Source of the DNA: Pseudarthrobacter phenanthrenivorans
Lineage (GTDB): Bacteria > Actinomycetota > Actinomycetes > Actinomycetales > Micrococcaceae
Reading direction: 5' to 3'
Assembly (NCBI RefSeq): GCF_000813845.1
Contig: NZ_JWTB01000025.1
Span: forward strand, 1 to 64,000
DNA length: 64,000 nt
The notes below the pieces were generated by a model. It was not told the DNA's origin and did not search any database. It worked only from the letters and a program-made list of their open reading frames with translations. Each line of letters opens with the position of its first letter. Position 1 is the stretch's first letter. Below, in pieces: positions 37,364 through 44,600 of the stretch. The position numbers were made by a program, and so were the translations under genes.

Positions 37364-37909
37364 ATGCTTGGAGGCATGGACTCAACGTCGAGCGCATACC
37401 GCGTCATCACCGTCTGCACGGGCAACATCTGCCGGTCCCCCATGGCCGAACTCATGCTCAAGGCGGCGCTTGAACGCGAGGGCCTCGACGGGCTGGTGGA
37501 AGTGGACTCCGCCGGCACCACGGGCTACGAGGCCGGCCGCCCGATTGATCCACGCGCCGCCCGCCGGCTCGCCGCCACCCAACTGCCGTCCGACCACCAC
37601 GTGGCCCGCGAATGGGAGGATGGCTGGTTCCGCGAGCGCGATCTGATCCTGGCTTTGGACATCGACCATTACGCCTGGCTCAGCGAAGCGGCACCGGACC
37701 AGGAGTCCCTGGACAAGATCCGGATGCTGCGCAGTTTTGATCCCGCCATGGCAGGCAGGGACCGGCTGGACCAAGGCATCGAGGACCCCTGGTACGGCGG
37801 CCACGCCGACTTCGACGCCGTCTGGCACCAGATCCACTCCGCCCTTCCCGGCTTGGTGGAACACATCCGGACGGCAGTCCGGCAGAACACGCAGCTCCAG
37901 CCGCATTAG
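37364..37909 (+). CDS. Low-molecular-weight protein-tyrosine phosphatase
   Basis: A 181-residue LMW phosphatase with the P-loop VCTGNICRSPMAEL (nucleophile Cys18, Arg24 by this start) and a C-terminal acid loop DIEDPWYGG-like segment (GIEDPWYGGHADF), which supplies the general-acid aspartate. It would dephosphorylate tyrosine on proteins or act as an arsenate-reductase-type enzyme; the DPW loop favours the phosphatase. ATG 37364 and ATG 37376 are both possible; neither has an ideally spaced ribosome site. Confidence 0.9.
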   Translation: MLGGMDSTSSAYRVITVCTGNICRSPMAELMLKAALEREGLDGLVEVDSAGTTGYEAGRPIDPRAARRLAATQLPSDHHVAREWEDGWFRERDLILALDIDHYAWLSEAAPDQESLDKIRMLRSFDPAMAGRDRLDQGIEDPWYGGHADFDAVWHQIHSALPGLVEHIRTAVRQNTQLQPH

Positions 37910-37925: not shown

Positions 37926-37940
37926 AATTGCAGTGCAATT
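37926..37940. promoter_or_regulatory. AATTGCA-G-TGCAATT inverted repeat upstream of the DUF2231 gene
   Basis: A perfect 7-1-7 palindrome 29 nt before the proposed start, with TTGCAT repeats following it. A possible operator; no regulator gene is adjacent. Confidence 0.45.
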
Positions 37941-37968
37941 GCCCGGCAGCAGGAGTATTTTGCATTGC

Positions 37969-38520
37969 ATGCACGCCGCATCCCGCCCCGGCAGGTACAC
38001 CCGGTTCCTTGCGAAGCTCGAGGAAGCACACCCTTTGGACGCTGCCGTCACGGCGGCCGAGCCGCTGGCGTCTCGGCTGATGCCGGGACGCAGAATCCCG
38101 TCCATCATCCGCGGCGACACCACGGGCATCCCGCTGCACGTCATCCTCACCGATGCACCTTTCGGCGCCTGGTGGTCTGCGGTGTTCCTGGATCTTTTTG
38201 AGGACGAGGGTTCCCGGCGTGCGGCCCGGCGGCTGGTGGGCCTCGGCGTGCTGGCTGCGGTGCCCACGGCCCTGTCCGGATGGGCCACCTGGTCCGGCAA
38301 GGACCGTGCCATTAAGCGCGTAGGCATCGTGCATGCTGCCGCCAACGCCGCGGCAACCATTGTCTACGGTGCCTCTTGGGCGGCCCGGACACGCGGGCGG
38401 CATCGGCTGGGCGTACGGCTGTCGCGGGCGGGAGCGGTGCTGCTGCTGGTGAGCGGGTTCCTGGGCGGGCACCTGAGCAGCGGACGTCACGCATCCGGGC
38501 AGGGCGTACCCCGTGGGTGA
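37969..38520 (+). CDS. DUF2231-type membrane protein
   Basis: A 183-residue protein whose pattern fits DUF2231: GIPLHVILTDAPFGAWWSAVFLDL, then RRLVGLGVLAAVPTALSGWATW, an HAAANAAATIVYG helix and a C-terminal GGHLS. Four hydrophobic segments are expected, and conserved histidines in the membrane hint at haem or metal binding. The function is unknown. ATG 37969 is 13 nt from an AGGAG; TTG 37960, 4 nt after it, is an alternative start. Confidence 0.75.
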   Translation: MHAASRPGRYTRFLAKLEEAHPLDAAVTAAEPLASRLMPGRRIPSIIRGDTTGIPLHVILTDAPFGAWWSAVFLDLFEDEGSRRAARRLVGLGVLAAVPTALSGWATWSGKDRAIKRVGIVHAAANAAATIVYGASWAARTRGRHRLGVRLSRAGAVLLLVSGFLGGHLSSGRHASGQGVPRG

Positions 38521-38553: not shown

Positions 38554-40641
38554 ATGAGTCCAGCCCCCGTCATCATCGCCGTCGACGGGCGCTCCGGCGC
38601 AGGGAAGACCACCCTCGCCGTCGAGCTTGCGGCCGCGCTGCGCGCCCACCACAAGGTCTCCCTGTTCCACCTCGAGGACATCTACCCCGGCTGGGACGGC
38701 CTCACGGCGGGCATCGAGCGCTACGTTTCCACCGTCCTGGCGCCCCTGGGCCGCGGCGAGGCAGCCACCTGGACCAGCTGGGACTGGGACAACCACTACG
38801 ACGGCGACACCCGGGTAACGCTGCCCGCCGAGATCGTCATCGTGGAGGGCGTGGGGGCTGCTGCGGAAGCGGCACGTCCCCTGCTGAACGCGGTGATCTG
38901 GGCGGAATCCCCGGATGATGTCCGGCGGACCCGCGCCCTGGACCGGGACGGCGCCACCTATGAGCCCTACTGGGACCAATGGGCCGCCCAGGAGGAAGAG
39001 TGGCTGGGCCGCGATGACGTGCCCGGCCATGCGGACCTGCGCGTGCAGAACCTGGCCGACGGCTCGGCCCCGGCGGACATCCTGCGGCTCCTCCCCTTCC
39101 TGCCCGCCCTGGCCCCGGTACTCGCCCCGGAATCATCGGCGCGCCAGGCACTCCGCCTCCGTGCCGAACGCCTCACGGCCGTACCGGATGCGCCCGGACT
39201 GTTCCACCAGCTGTACGGACACTCGGCCAACGCCGTCTGGCTGGACTCCTCCAATGCGGGCAGCGCAAAAGACGGTACAGACCCGGCCGCACGGACGGCC
39301 GCGGAACGCAGCCGGTTCAGCATCATGGCGGACGACGGCGGCACGTTCGGGCAGTTCGTCGCGCACCGCGGCGGCGTCAGCCGGATCAGCGCAGGCTCAT
39401 CGACGGCCAAGGTCGCGGGCCCCTTCTTCCGCTGGCTGGACACTGTCTGGGGCCGGCCGGCCGTCCGCACCCCGGACGGCTATCCCGGCGGGTTCACCTT
39501 GGGCTGGCTGGGTTTCCTGGGCTACGAATTGAAACGCGAAACCGGCGGCAGCGACCTGGCCGCACCCACCCCCGATGCCGCGTTGATCTTCGCCGGAAGG
39601 GCCGTGGTCCTGGACCACGCCGACGGCACCGCCTGGCTCCTGGCGCTGGAGGCACCTGACGCGGATGATTGGCTGGCTGAGGCGCGGGCAGCGGTCCACG
39701 CCGCGGCGGACGCCGCCGCCCCTAAGCCGGAGCCGGCAGCGGAAGCCGGCGGCAGCACCGGCGTCGTACTTCCCGCAGCACCCGCCTTCCGCAGCAGGGA
39801 TTCGGGCGCCCAGTACCGGGAAAAGATCACCGCCGCCCAGTACGAGATCACCCAGGGCAACAGCTACGAGGTCTGCCTGACCACCACCCTTGAAGCCCGG
39901 CTCGGGGCAGGTTCGCTGGATCCCTGGACCACCTACCTGGCGCTGCGCCGCAGGAACCCGGCCCCGTTCGCCAGCTACCTGCGGCTGGGCAGCCTGGCCG
40001 TGGCCAGCACGTCACCGGAGCGGTTCCTCAGGATCGCGTCCGACGGCGGCATGCGCGCCGAGCCGATCAAGGGCACCAGGCGCCGGGCTGCTGATCCGGC
40101 GGAGGACCACCGGCTGCGCACGGACCTGGCCACGTCGCTGAAGGACAGGGCCGAGAACATCATGATCGTGGACCTGCTGCGCAACGACCTCAGCCATTTT
40201 GCCGAACCCGGTTCGGTCACGGTCAGCCGGCTCTGCGCCATCGAAAGCTACGCCACGGTCCACCAGATGGTCAGCACCATCGACGCCCGCCTGGCCCCCG
40301 GGGCGCCGCGGGCCGAGGCCGTGGCGGCCTGCTTCCCCGCCGGATCCATGACCGGGGCCCCCAAGATCAGCACCATGGCCATCCTTGACCGGTTGGAGGC
40401 CGGACCCCGCGGGCCCTACTCGGGTGCCATCGGCTACTTTTCGCTGAACGCTGCGGCTGATCTTGCCGTCGCCATCCGGACCCTGGTGATCGACACGGCA
40501 GGCGACGGAACGGCGGAAGTGTCGCTCGGCGTCGGCGGTGCCATCACATCCGACTCCGATCCGGACGATGAATACGAGGAAATCCGGACCAAGGCATACG
40601 GTGTGCTCTCCACCCTGGGCGCCGCGTTCCCGGAAGACTGA
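38554..40641 (+). CDS. pabB: Aminodeoxychorismate synthase component I with N-terminal P-loop kinase-like domain
   Basis: A 695-residue fusion. Residues 1-190 look like a uridine-kinase-type P-loop NTPase: Walker A GRSGAGKTT at 12-20, a LEDIYPGW acceptor loop, VIVEGVGA as Walker B-like strand and RRTRALDRDG as lid. Residues 200-695 are a PabB/TrpE chorismate-binding domain with GNSYEVCLTT, EPIKGTRRR, ENIMIVDLLRNDLSHFAEPGSV, HQMVSTI and PAGSMTGAPKI. The IKGT lysine favours PabB over anthranilate synthase. Usually PabB is linked to the PabA amidotransferase; here the partner domain is a kinase-like one. ATG 38554 has TACGCT seven nt upstream, suggesting a leaderless mRNA. Confidence 0.9.
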   Translation: MSPAPVIIAVDGRSGAGKTTLAVELAAALRAHHKVSLFHLEDIYPGWDGLTAGIERYVSTVLAPLGRGEAATWTSWDWDNHYDGDTRVTLPAEIVIVEGVGAAAEAARPLLNAVIWAESPDDVRRTRALDRDGATYEPYWDQWAAQEEEWLGRDDVPGHADLRVQNLADGSAPADILRLLPFLPALAPVLAPESSARQALRLRAERLTAVPDAPGLFHQLYGHSANAVWLDSSNAGSAKDGTDPAARTAAERSRFSIMADDGGTFGQFVAHRGGVSRISAGSSTAKVAGPFFRWLDTVWGRPAVRTPDGYPGGFTLGWLGFLGYELKRETGGSDLAAPTPDAALIFAGRAVVLDHADGTAWLLALEAPDADDWLAEARAAVHAAADAAAPKPEPAAEAGGSTGVVLPAAPAFRSRDSGAQYREKITAAQYEITQGNSYEVCLTTTLEARLGAGSLDPWTTYLALRRRNPAPFASYLRLGSLAVASTSPERFLRIASDGGMRAEPIKGTRRRAADPAEDHRLRTDLATSLKDRAENIMIVDLLRNDLSHFAEPGSVTVSRLCAIESYATVHQMVSTIDARLAPGAPRAEAVAACFPAGSMTGAPKISTMAILDRLEAGPRGPYSGAIGYFSLNAAADLAVAIRTLVIDTAGDGTAEVSLGVGGAITSDSDPDDEYEEIRTKAYGVLSTLGAAFPED

Positions 40642-40743: not shown

Positions 40744-42018
40744 GTGACGGATCCTTCCCATTCCCACAAGCCCGGCAATAAGGCACCGCGCAGCATCAAG
40801 TACGTCCTGATGCTCGGCGCCCTGGCCGCGCTTCCTGCCCTCACCACGGACATGTACCTGCCGTCGCTGCCCGCGGTGGAGGCCGACCTCAACACCACCC
40901 AGACCGCCGCCCAGCTGACGTTGTCCGGAACCCTCGTCGGCGCCGGGGTGGGCCAATTGGTCGTTGGCCCGTTCTCGGACCGGTTCGGACGGCGCCTTCC
41001 GCTGGTCATCGGCATCTCGCTGCACGTGGCCATCTCCCTGCTCTGCTCCATGACGCCGAACATCGAAACGCTCACGGGCCTGCGCGTGCTGCAGGGCTTC
41101 TTCAACGCATCCGCGGCAGTGGTGGCACTCGCCGTGATCCGCGACCGCTTCGTCGGGTCCGCCGCGGCTCAGCTGCTGTCCCGGCTGATGCTGGTGATCG
41201 GTGTGGCACCCCTCCTGGCTCCCACCGTGGGCCAGGCCATCGCGGGCGCCTGGAACTGGCGCGCCGTCTTCTACGCCCTGGCGCTCATCGGGGTGGTCCT
41301 GGTGGCCATCGTCCTGCGGTTCATGCCCGAGACCCTGCCGGAGGACAGGCGCAGCCCGGGCCACCCCAGGCATGTGGCCGGGGCCTACTGGTCCCTGCTC
41401 AGGGACCGGCATTTCATGGCGCTGGCCGTCATCCCTGGACTGGGGCTGGCGCTGATCATGAGCTACGTGGTGGGCTCGCCCTTCGTCTTCCAGAACGAAT
41501 ACGGCCTCACCGCCCAGCAGTTCGCCCTCGTTTTCGCCCTCAACGGCGCCGCGCTGGTCCTCTCGGCCCAGCTCAATGCCGCCCTGGTCAGGAAATTCCC
41601 GCCGGTCCGCCTCCTGCGCACCGCCCTCCTGGTCCAGCTGGGCCTTGCCCTGCTGCTGCTCGCGGTGGTGGCCACGGGCGCCGGCGGCGCATTCGGCCTG
41701 GTGGCCGCCCTGTGGCTGGTCCTGTCGGCCCAGGGCATGATCCCGGCCAACGCCTCCGTGCTGGCCCTGCACAACTACGGCCATATGGCGGGGACGGCGG
41801 CGGCGGTCATTGGCGCCCTGCAGTCCGGCGTCGCGGGACTGGTAAGCCCCCTGGTGGGAATCCTGGGCGGCAACTCACTGTCCATGGCCAGCGTCATGAT
41901 CGGCAGCTGCGCCCTGGCGGTGACGGTGCTCGCGCTGGGGACGCCTGCCTACCGGAACGGCGGCTGGCCCGAGCATGCAGGGCACGACGGCGGCCAGCGG
42001 GTGGGCGCCGAAGAGTAG
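40744..42018 (+). CDS. Bcr/CflA-type multidrug MFS transporter
   Basis: A 424-residue drug:H+ antiporter with about 12 helices. It shows the Bcr/CflA pattern ALPALTTDMYLPSLPAVEADLNTT near the first helix, motif A as VGPFSDRFGRRLPLVIG, and RVLQGFFNASAAVVALAVIRD. GTG 40744 follows GAGTGAGG. It lies between pabB and pabC on the same strand but has its own start region. Sulfonamide or bicyclomycin-like export is the family activity, not demonstrated here. Confidence 0.88.
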   Translation: MTDPSHSHKPGNKAPRSIKYVLMLGALAALPALTTDMYLPSLPAVEADLNTTQTAAQLTLSGTLVGAGVGQLVVGPFSDRFGRRLPLVIGISLHVAISLLCSMTPNIETLTGLRVLQGFFNASAAVVALAVIRDRFVGSAAAQLLSRLMLVIGVAPLLAPTVGQAIAGAWNWRAVFYALALIGVVLVAIVLRFMPETLPEDRRSPGHPRHVAGAYWSLLRDRHFMALAVIPGLGLALIMSYVVGSPFVFQNEYGLTAQQFALVFALNGAALVLSAQLNAALVRKFPPVRLLRTALLVQLGLALLLLAVVATGAGGAFGLVAALWLVLSAQGMIPANASVLALHNYGHMAGTAAAVIGALQSGVAGLVSPLVGILGGNSLSMASVMIGSCALAVTVLALGTPAYRNGGWPEHAGHDGGQRVGAEE

Positions 42019-43670: not shown

Positions 43671-44600
43671 ATGACCTCTCCAGCCCCCGTGGTTCTCGTT
43701 TTCCTCGACCCTGCTTTCCCTGACGGCCGCGTGGAGGATGCCGCCAAGCCCCAGCTGCTGGTCACGGACCTGGGGGTCACCCGGGGCGACGGCGTCTTCG
43801 AAACCATGCTGGCCGTGGGTGGCGAGGTCCGGAAGATGCAGGCCCACCTGGACCGGCTCGGAGCCTCCGCCGAAGCCCTTGACCTGGACATCCCGGGCCA
43901 GGACGCCTGGCGGCGGGCCATAGCTGCCGCTGTTGTCCGGCACCGCTCGGAGAACCCGCCGGCGGACCCGGCCACGGACGAGCTAGTGGTGAAGCTGGTG
44001 GTGACCCGCGGCGCCGAGGGCGCTCCAGCCCCCACCGCGTGGGTCCAGGCTTCTCCGGCGGGTGCGGCCGGCCGGCGGCAGCGGGAGACGGGCATCGACG
44101 TGATCTTCCTGGACCGCGGCTATGACAGCGACGTTGCCGAGCGGGCGCCCTGGCTGCTCCTGGGTGCCAAGACCCTGTCCTACGCCGTGAACATGGCAGC
44201 CCTCCGCTACGCGCACAAGCAAGGTGCAGACGACGTGATCTTCCTGTCCTCGGATGGCCGGGTCCTGGAAGGCCCCACGTCCACCGTGCTGCTGGCCCAC
44301 GTGGAAGAGTCCGACGGCGGCCCGCGGGTCAAGCGCCTGATCACGCCGCAGCTGGACAGCGGCATCCTTCCGGGGACGTCCCAGGGAGCGCTCTTCACCG
44401 CAGCGAAGGCAGCGGGCTGGGAACTGGGCTACGGCCCCCTGGAGCCGCAGGACCTCCTGGACGCCGACGCCGTCTGGCTGATCTCCAGCGTCCGCCTGCT
44501 GGCGCCCGTCAACACGATCGACGGCAAGCAGATCGGCACGCCGTCGCTGCAGAAGGAACTCACAGCCGAGTTGGGTGCACTTTTCGCCGGTATCCGTTAG
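43671..44600 (+). CDS. pabC: Aminodeoxychorismate lyase
   Basis: PLP enzyme of aminotransferase class IV, 309 residues, releasing pyruvate from 4-amino-4-deoxychorismate to give p-aminobenzoate for folate. Family residues are visible: the PLP lysine in LLGAKTLSYAVNMAA and the cofactor-side glutamate in SDGRVLEGPTSTVLL. It belongs functionally with pabB three genes upstream. A branched-chain aminotransferase role is less likely in this context. ATG 43671 has TAAGCT six nt upstream and no ribosome site, so the mRNA is probably leaderless. Confidence 0.87.
   Translation: MTSPAPVVLVFLDPAFPDGRVEDAAKPQLLVTDLGVTRGDGVFETMLAVGGEVRKMQAHLDRLGASAEALDLDIPGQDAWRRAIAAAVVRHRSENPPADPATDELVVKLVVTRGAEGAPAPTAWVQASPAGAAGRRQRETGIDVIFLDRGYDSDVAERAPWLLLGAKTLSYAVNMAALRYAHKQGADDVIFLSSDGRVLEGPTSTVLLAHVEESDGGPRVKRLITPQLDSGILPGTSQGALFTAAKAAGWELGYGPLEPQDLLDADAVWLISSVRLLAPVNTIDGKQIGTPSLQKELTAELGALFAGIR

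Follow-up and report, generated by a model that had tools for sequence, protein, structure and literature searches.

Component I of aminodeoxychorismate (ADC) synthase, PabB, is usually found by itself or fused with PabA or with PabC. In other bacteria, an amphibolic TrpG/PabA supplies both TrpE and PabB. The 4-amino-4-deoxychorismate synthase of Streptomyces venezuelae is a PabA-PabB fusion with the PabA amidotransferase at the N-terminus. PRK06547 (NF005115) is an actinobacterial P-loop kinase family, the known members of which are standalone and uncharacterised.

In the DNA analysed here (the window, 64,000 nucleotides of Pseudarthrobacter phenanthrenivorans contig NZ_JWTB01000025.1), a kinase of this kind and PabB are encoded by one gene. 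The kinase-PabB combination is a new domain architecture, and the fusion is real, old and conserved. A literature search retrieved no description of the fusion or of PRK06547, which is weak evidence given the limited paper collection. On balance, the product is probably a bifunctional protein, in which an ordinary ADC synthase subunit and an independent small-molecule kinase were joined through operon neighbourhood.

Gene and domain organisation

The fused gene (38554-40641, + strand) is a single uninterrupted open reading frame with an ATG start and encodes 695 amino acids. A Shine-Dalgarno-like GGAGG lies about 15-20 bases 5' of this start. Scans of the surrounding sequence for RNA families and promoters found none. 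The extent of the gene is supported by Pfam, NCBIfam and AlphaFold2, and by its full-length occurrence in congeneric genomes. Residues 1-165 (38554-39048, +) form a PRK06547-like kinase domain with a uridine-cytidine kinase fold, as delimited by NCBIfam, alignment and predicted structure. They are followed by a linker (residues 166-204; 39049-39165, +) with predicted helices at 172-182 and 191-199. The PabB half (residues 205-695; 39166-40638, +) contains Anth_synt_I_N and Chorismate_bind according to Pfam, NCBIfam and a fold search, and residues 205-690 make up a complete PabB. The whole protein was modelled by AlphaFold2 with 25 fused relatives (pLDDT 88.4, pTM 0.89). The pTM of the full chain suggests that the two halves are held in a fixed arrangement and are not beads on a string.

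The aminodeoxychorismate synthase half

The initial annotation had described a complete PabB domain, and this description holds. Pfam places Chorismate_bind at residues 419-680 (2.6e-82) and Anth_synt_I_N at 216-359. The TIGR00553 pabB model scores 337 bits and exceeds its cut-off of 328.4. The predicted fold of residues 198-689 matches the S. venezuelae ADC synthase 8hx8 (Z 48.1, 450 residues, 1.8 A, 44% identity), with PabB of B. subtilis and E. coli as further matches. A PabB-type PIKGT motif is found at residues 504-508 (40063-40077, +), and its lysine, K506, is present in 57/57 fused sequences. The genome's own TrpE reads PIAGS at the same place. The PIKGT motif and the existence of this separate TrpE rule out that the PabB half is a TrpE.

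No glutamine amidotransferase had been noticed nearby, which holds for the TrpG/PabA type: a single TrpG/PabA gene in the genome exceeds the family cut-off, and it lies on another contig (G000:C1:88513-89076), where its neighbours are genes for a PASTA-type Ser/Thr kinase and a sortase-like protein. By analogy with the amphibolic enzymes, this single TrpG/PabA probably serves both TrpE and PabB. Its presence elsewhere in the genome rules out the missing neighbour as a sign of unusual chemistry.

The kinase half

The Walker A motif (P-loop) reported for residues 12-20, GRSGAGKTT, was recovered exactly as G12-R-S-G-A-G-K18-T-T20 (38587-38613, +). Among 56 fused and 20 standalone relatives, it shows no change save a few conservative ones. 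The segment E41-D-I-Y-P-G-W-D-G-L50 (38674-38703, +) is conserved, and its E41 takes the place of the catalytic aspartate in an alignment with the Thermus uridine kinase. Conservation and the predicted structure identify a Walker B-like strand and turn, I94-V-I-V-E98-G-V-G101 (38833-38856, +). The lid, recognised by conservation, comprises R124, R127 and R131-D-G133 together with W140, W143 and Q146-E147 (38923-38994, +), and the lid of the Thermus uridine kinase aligns with R124 and R131-D132. Across the same 56 fused and 20 standalone kinases, D11-G-x-S-G, G17-K18-T19, E/D41, Y44-P-G-W-x-G-L50, W76-D-W78, E98-G-x-G101, R124, R131-D-G133, W140, W143 and Q146-E147 are nearly invariant. H139 and R142, in contrast, are common in the standalone kinases and variable in the fused ones. 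The conservation of the motifs recurs in a second set of 69 sequences. Loss of the Walker residues in close relatives had been named beforehand as counter-evidence; these residues are kept in 57 fused sequences.

The domain-database search that the initial annotation had proposed was run with the N-terminal region. With the first 199 residues as query, Pfam PRK (Phosphoribulokinase/Uridine kinase) scores 24.7 bits against a cut-off of 22 and covers residues 7-33 only. The NCBIfam model PRK06547, named 'hypothetical protein', aligns with residues 6-164 (E 1.4e-45); the score of 155 bits does not reach the model's cut-off of 173. This alignment spans model positions 16-170 of 172 and is thus full-length. 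Most of the standalone homologues tested score 143-168 bits and also fall below the cut-off, with one above it at 188. The fusion kinase is therefore a homologue of the PRK06547 (NF005115) family but not a member by NCBI's rule. A PHROGs search gave only weak P-loop matches.

AlphaFold2 modelling of the kinase domain alone, with 69 relatives, gave a pLDDT of 90.7 and a pTM of 0.87. In a search with the predicted fold of residues 1-184, human UCK2 (1uej) was matched with Z 19.2 over 177 residues at 2.5 A. Thermus uridine kinase, phosphoribulokinase, pantothenate kinase and nicotinamide riboside kinase were also matched. The predicted fold, Walker A, the Walker B-like strand and the lid arginines place the domain in the uridine kinase superfamily (PRK/UCK). 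The uridine-kinase-like N-terminal domain first proposed, with its Walker B-like strand and lid, is hence intact and conserved in fused and standalone relatives alike, and is predicted to adopt the UCK fold.

Median pairwise dN/dS (Nei-Gojobori, with the window's gene as reference and distant pairs partly saturated at synonymous sites) is 0.15 for the kinase half vs 0.235 for the PabB half of the same genes. Purifying selection is stronger on the kinase half than on the PabB half. The conservation of the motifs and these ratios rule out a degenerate, non-catalytic kinase.

The kinase half could simply serve the cell as its uridine/cytidine (nucleoside) kinase, attached to PabB, as its best fold matches are uridine-cytidine kinases. 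Moreover, a PF00485 search of the genome detected no separate uridine kinase: the sole match above the cut-off was a CoaA-like pantothenate kinase (G000:C25:64899-65330, L274), and the fusion's own domain was likewise not among the matches. The uridine kinase models, however, score far under their cut-offs (TIGR00235, 32.3 vs 220.3 bits; NF004018, 38.8 vs 180 bits). Position 81, a histidine in the window's protein and assigned by sequence alignment to the base-reading His/Tyr site of uridine kinase, is likewise variable in fused and standalone proteins. Among the fused proteins (n=57) it is H in 41, N in 6, D in 4, G in 3 and Q in 1, and in the standalone proteins it is mostly G, D or S. Since position 81 is not conserved, uridine is not assured as the substrate of the kinase. 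A nucleoside kinase of this kind is very unlikely.

Distribution of the fusion

How often the fusion occurs had also been put forward for checking. Of 37 genomes of the genus, 35 carry it in one frame over its whole length; the other two (G022 and G030) give split matches, which are probably frame errors. At least 109 of 197 Micrococcaceae genomes, from at least 20 of the 32 genera, carry it as a single match starting at or before residue 6 and ending at or after residue 693. A 21st genus was added from reading its locus. Records from Arthrobacter, Pseudarthrobacter, Paenarthrobacter, Sinomonas, Citricoccus and Specibacter contain the fusion. An assembly or sequencing error that joined two genes had been considered from the beginning. 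The split matches in G022 and G030 would agree with it, but the single frame in the 35 congeneric genomes and in the records of these six genera rules out an artefact and leaves it a negligible chance.

The kinase domain is present in 143 of 198 genomes of the order and in 36 of 396 genomes of the phylum. At the loci read outside the family, it is a separate gene. A plasmid search returned matches to PabB; the kinase was found in four records, none spanning 80% of the fusion. Besides the fusion, three Arthrobacter genomes (G010, G016 and G025) hold a second, distant lone kinase copy with 33-38% identity, and such a copy is also found on the Arthrobacter alpinus plasmid NZ_CP013746.1. Further copies of PabB, or of PabA-PabB, occur elsewhere in some genomes of the family (L174, L175, L176).

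Genomic neighbourhood and separate occurrence of the two halves

In the window, a low-molecular-weight (LMW) phosphotyrosine phosphatase gene (37364-37909, +; Pfam) lies upstream of the fusion; the loci of relatives show that its place ahead of the kinase is conserved in much of the family. A gene for a DUF2231 membrane protein (37933-38520, +; Pfam) is located between the two. Downstream follows a gene for a Bcr/CflA-type MFS exporter (40744-42018, +; TIGR00710, 288 bits, cut-off 201). PabC, the aminodeoxychorismate lyase acting after PabB, is encoded at 43671-44600 (+; NF005886, 290 bits, cut-off 253). In the family, pabC is usually found within a few kb of the kinase, fused or lone.

In nine genera of the family that lack the fusion, a lone kinase gene was found in all 27 genomes tested. 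Most of the loci read are arranged as in the window, with the LMW phosphatase gene, the kinase gene, sometimes an MFS or phospholipase-D-like gene, and pabC. In three genera, the phosphatase gene overlaps the start of the lone kinase by a few bases (L102:5866, L104:6533, L193:4905), which suggests translational coupling.

A PIKGT-type PabB is encoded elsewhere in 14 of 18 lone-kinase genomes tested. In the other four (G063, G068, G098 and G122), PabB was not detected, and the sole PabB/TrpE homologue is of the TrpE type with PIAGS. These genomes, three of which belong to genus g32 (G068, G098 and G122), encode PabC as well as the lone kinase. Such strains either import pABA or make ADC with another enzyme. 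Conversely, the kinase was not found in any of 10 genomes of genus g33, and four g33 PabB proteins cluster with fused PabB in the PabB tree. Basal support is low and long branches are joined in the kinase tree of the family. The lone kinases, some in genomes without detectable PabB, and the g33 PabB without kinase show that each half is kept without the other.

Outside the family, three settings of the lone kinase were read: opposite hisF in head-to-head orientation, flanked by argH and tyrS, or following gatB and dinB. At the loci read, these neighbours share no common pathway and include no folate synthesis genes. They were dropped as a guide to the substrate, as hisF, argH/tyrS and gatB/dinB have no common theme. 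The head-to-head hisF loci (L196, L202, L203, L209, L212-L214, L228) come from genomes of the Intrasporangiaceae type and have a TIGR03085-like gene beyond; the neighbours are named from sequence resemblance.

Function of the fused protein

In the bifunctional protein favoured here, the C-terminal half, by family membership, would act as ADC synthase component I on chorismate and ammonia. The ammonia would be delivered in trans by the single, unlinked TrpG/PabA-type amidotransferase, and ADC would be the substrate of PabC, whose gene lies 3 kb downstream. The N-terminal half, judging from motifs and fold, would transfer a phosphoryl group from ATP to a small molecule in a putative substrate site lined by tryptophans. 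The two reactions would be independent. The kinase most likely has a job of its own because relatives hold the kinase without PabB and vice versa. The fusion would have arisen within the Micrococcaceae, where the kinase gene sits between the LMW phosphatase gene and pabC, probably from adjacent genes of one operon in the family ancestor; the genera with a lone kinase may have split it later or never had it. The location of pabC in the conserved neighbourhood of the kinase in most family members weighs against independence and leaves room for a link to pABA or folate. The fixed arrangement suggested by the pTM, and the variability of H139 and R142 in the fused kinases, also count against this reading.

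The initial annotation had suggested that p-aminobenzoate synthesis is under nucleotide-dependent control. In that case, the kinase domain would be a regulatory nucleotide sensor of PabB, and the binding of ATP or another nucleotide would tune ADC synthesis. The retention of the fusion in 20-21 of the 32 family genera and the defined predicted arrangement of the halves are compatible with such a role, and kinase-fold domains on unrelated enzymes are known from Tad2 (7eey) and TTM1 (7z67). Nevertheless, catalytic residues are nearly invariant besides the nucleotide-binding ones. The domain is also conserved as a lone protein in the nine genera, including the four genomes without detectable PabB, and in other orders, and g33 has PabB without the kinase. 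Regulation of this kind is thus distinctly unlikely. The separate kinase that had been offered as the other possibility fits better.

Alternatively, the kinase may belong to the metabolism of pABA, chorismate or folate, where a pterin or a chorismate-derived or folate-related compound could be its substrate, and the fusion would channel or couple two steps. The usual location of the kinase, fused or lone, a few kb from pabC in the family points in this direction. The fusion itself hints at a functional linkage, and the conserved Trp-rich site would suit an aromatic substrate. Outside the family, however, hisF, argH/tyrS or gatB/dinB lie beside the kinase instead of folate genes, and the kinase is retained in the four genomes without detectable PabB. 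The closeness of pabC in sister genera may, furthermore, come from a common ancestral locus. Such a pathway role is unlikely. It is likewise rather unlikely that the domain is an active kinase of new specificity in chorismate/pABA/folate metabolism, with the fusion as a two-step or self-regulating pABA-supply module and with the same activity in standalone PRK06547 proteins.

The fusion gives a genetic handle on a family of orphan kinases that persists across the actinobacteria, as PabB activity is readily selected and assayed. The kinase half could be disabled by changing one residue. If the kinase acts in pABA/folate supply, an unrecognised step or control point would be added to the pathway. 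If it acts outside this supply, the question of its substrate extends to many actinobacteria.

Comparison with known systems

The fusion kinase has the alignment over the whole domain (residues 6-164) and the motifs in common with PRK06547 (NF005115). In contrast to the known, standalone members of this family, it is joined to PabB. Like most standalone relatives tested, it scores below the cut-off of 173. With UCK2, Thermus Udk and the phosphoribulokinase/pantothenate kinase superfamily, it shares the predicted fold, Walker A, the catalytic Asp/Glu and the lid arginines. Identity to uridine-cytidine kinases is, however, 18-24%, and the base-reading residue is not kept. Unlike these kinases, it has its own signatures, Y-P-G-W-x-G-L and W-x-x-W-x-x-Q-E.

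Compared by fold, the N-terminal domain of S. pombe Tad2 (7eey, Z 17.7) and the kinase-TTM module of Arabidopsis TTM1 (7z67) are uridine-kinase-like domains joined to unrelated enzymes. Both are eukaryotic, and their partner enzymes are other than PabB. The PabB half most resembles the S. venezuelae ADC synthase (8hx6-8hx9) in its full fold, in the PIKGT lysine and in sequence (44% identity over 450 residues). PabA-PabB fusions such as this one begin with a glutamine amidotransferase, whereas the N-terminal 165 residues of the window's protein are a P-loop kinase and its amidotransferase is separate and unlinked.
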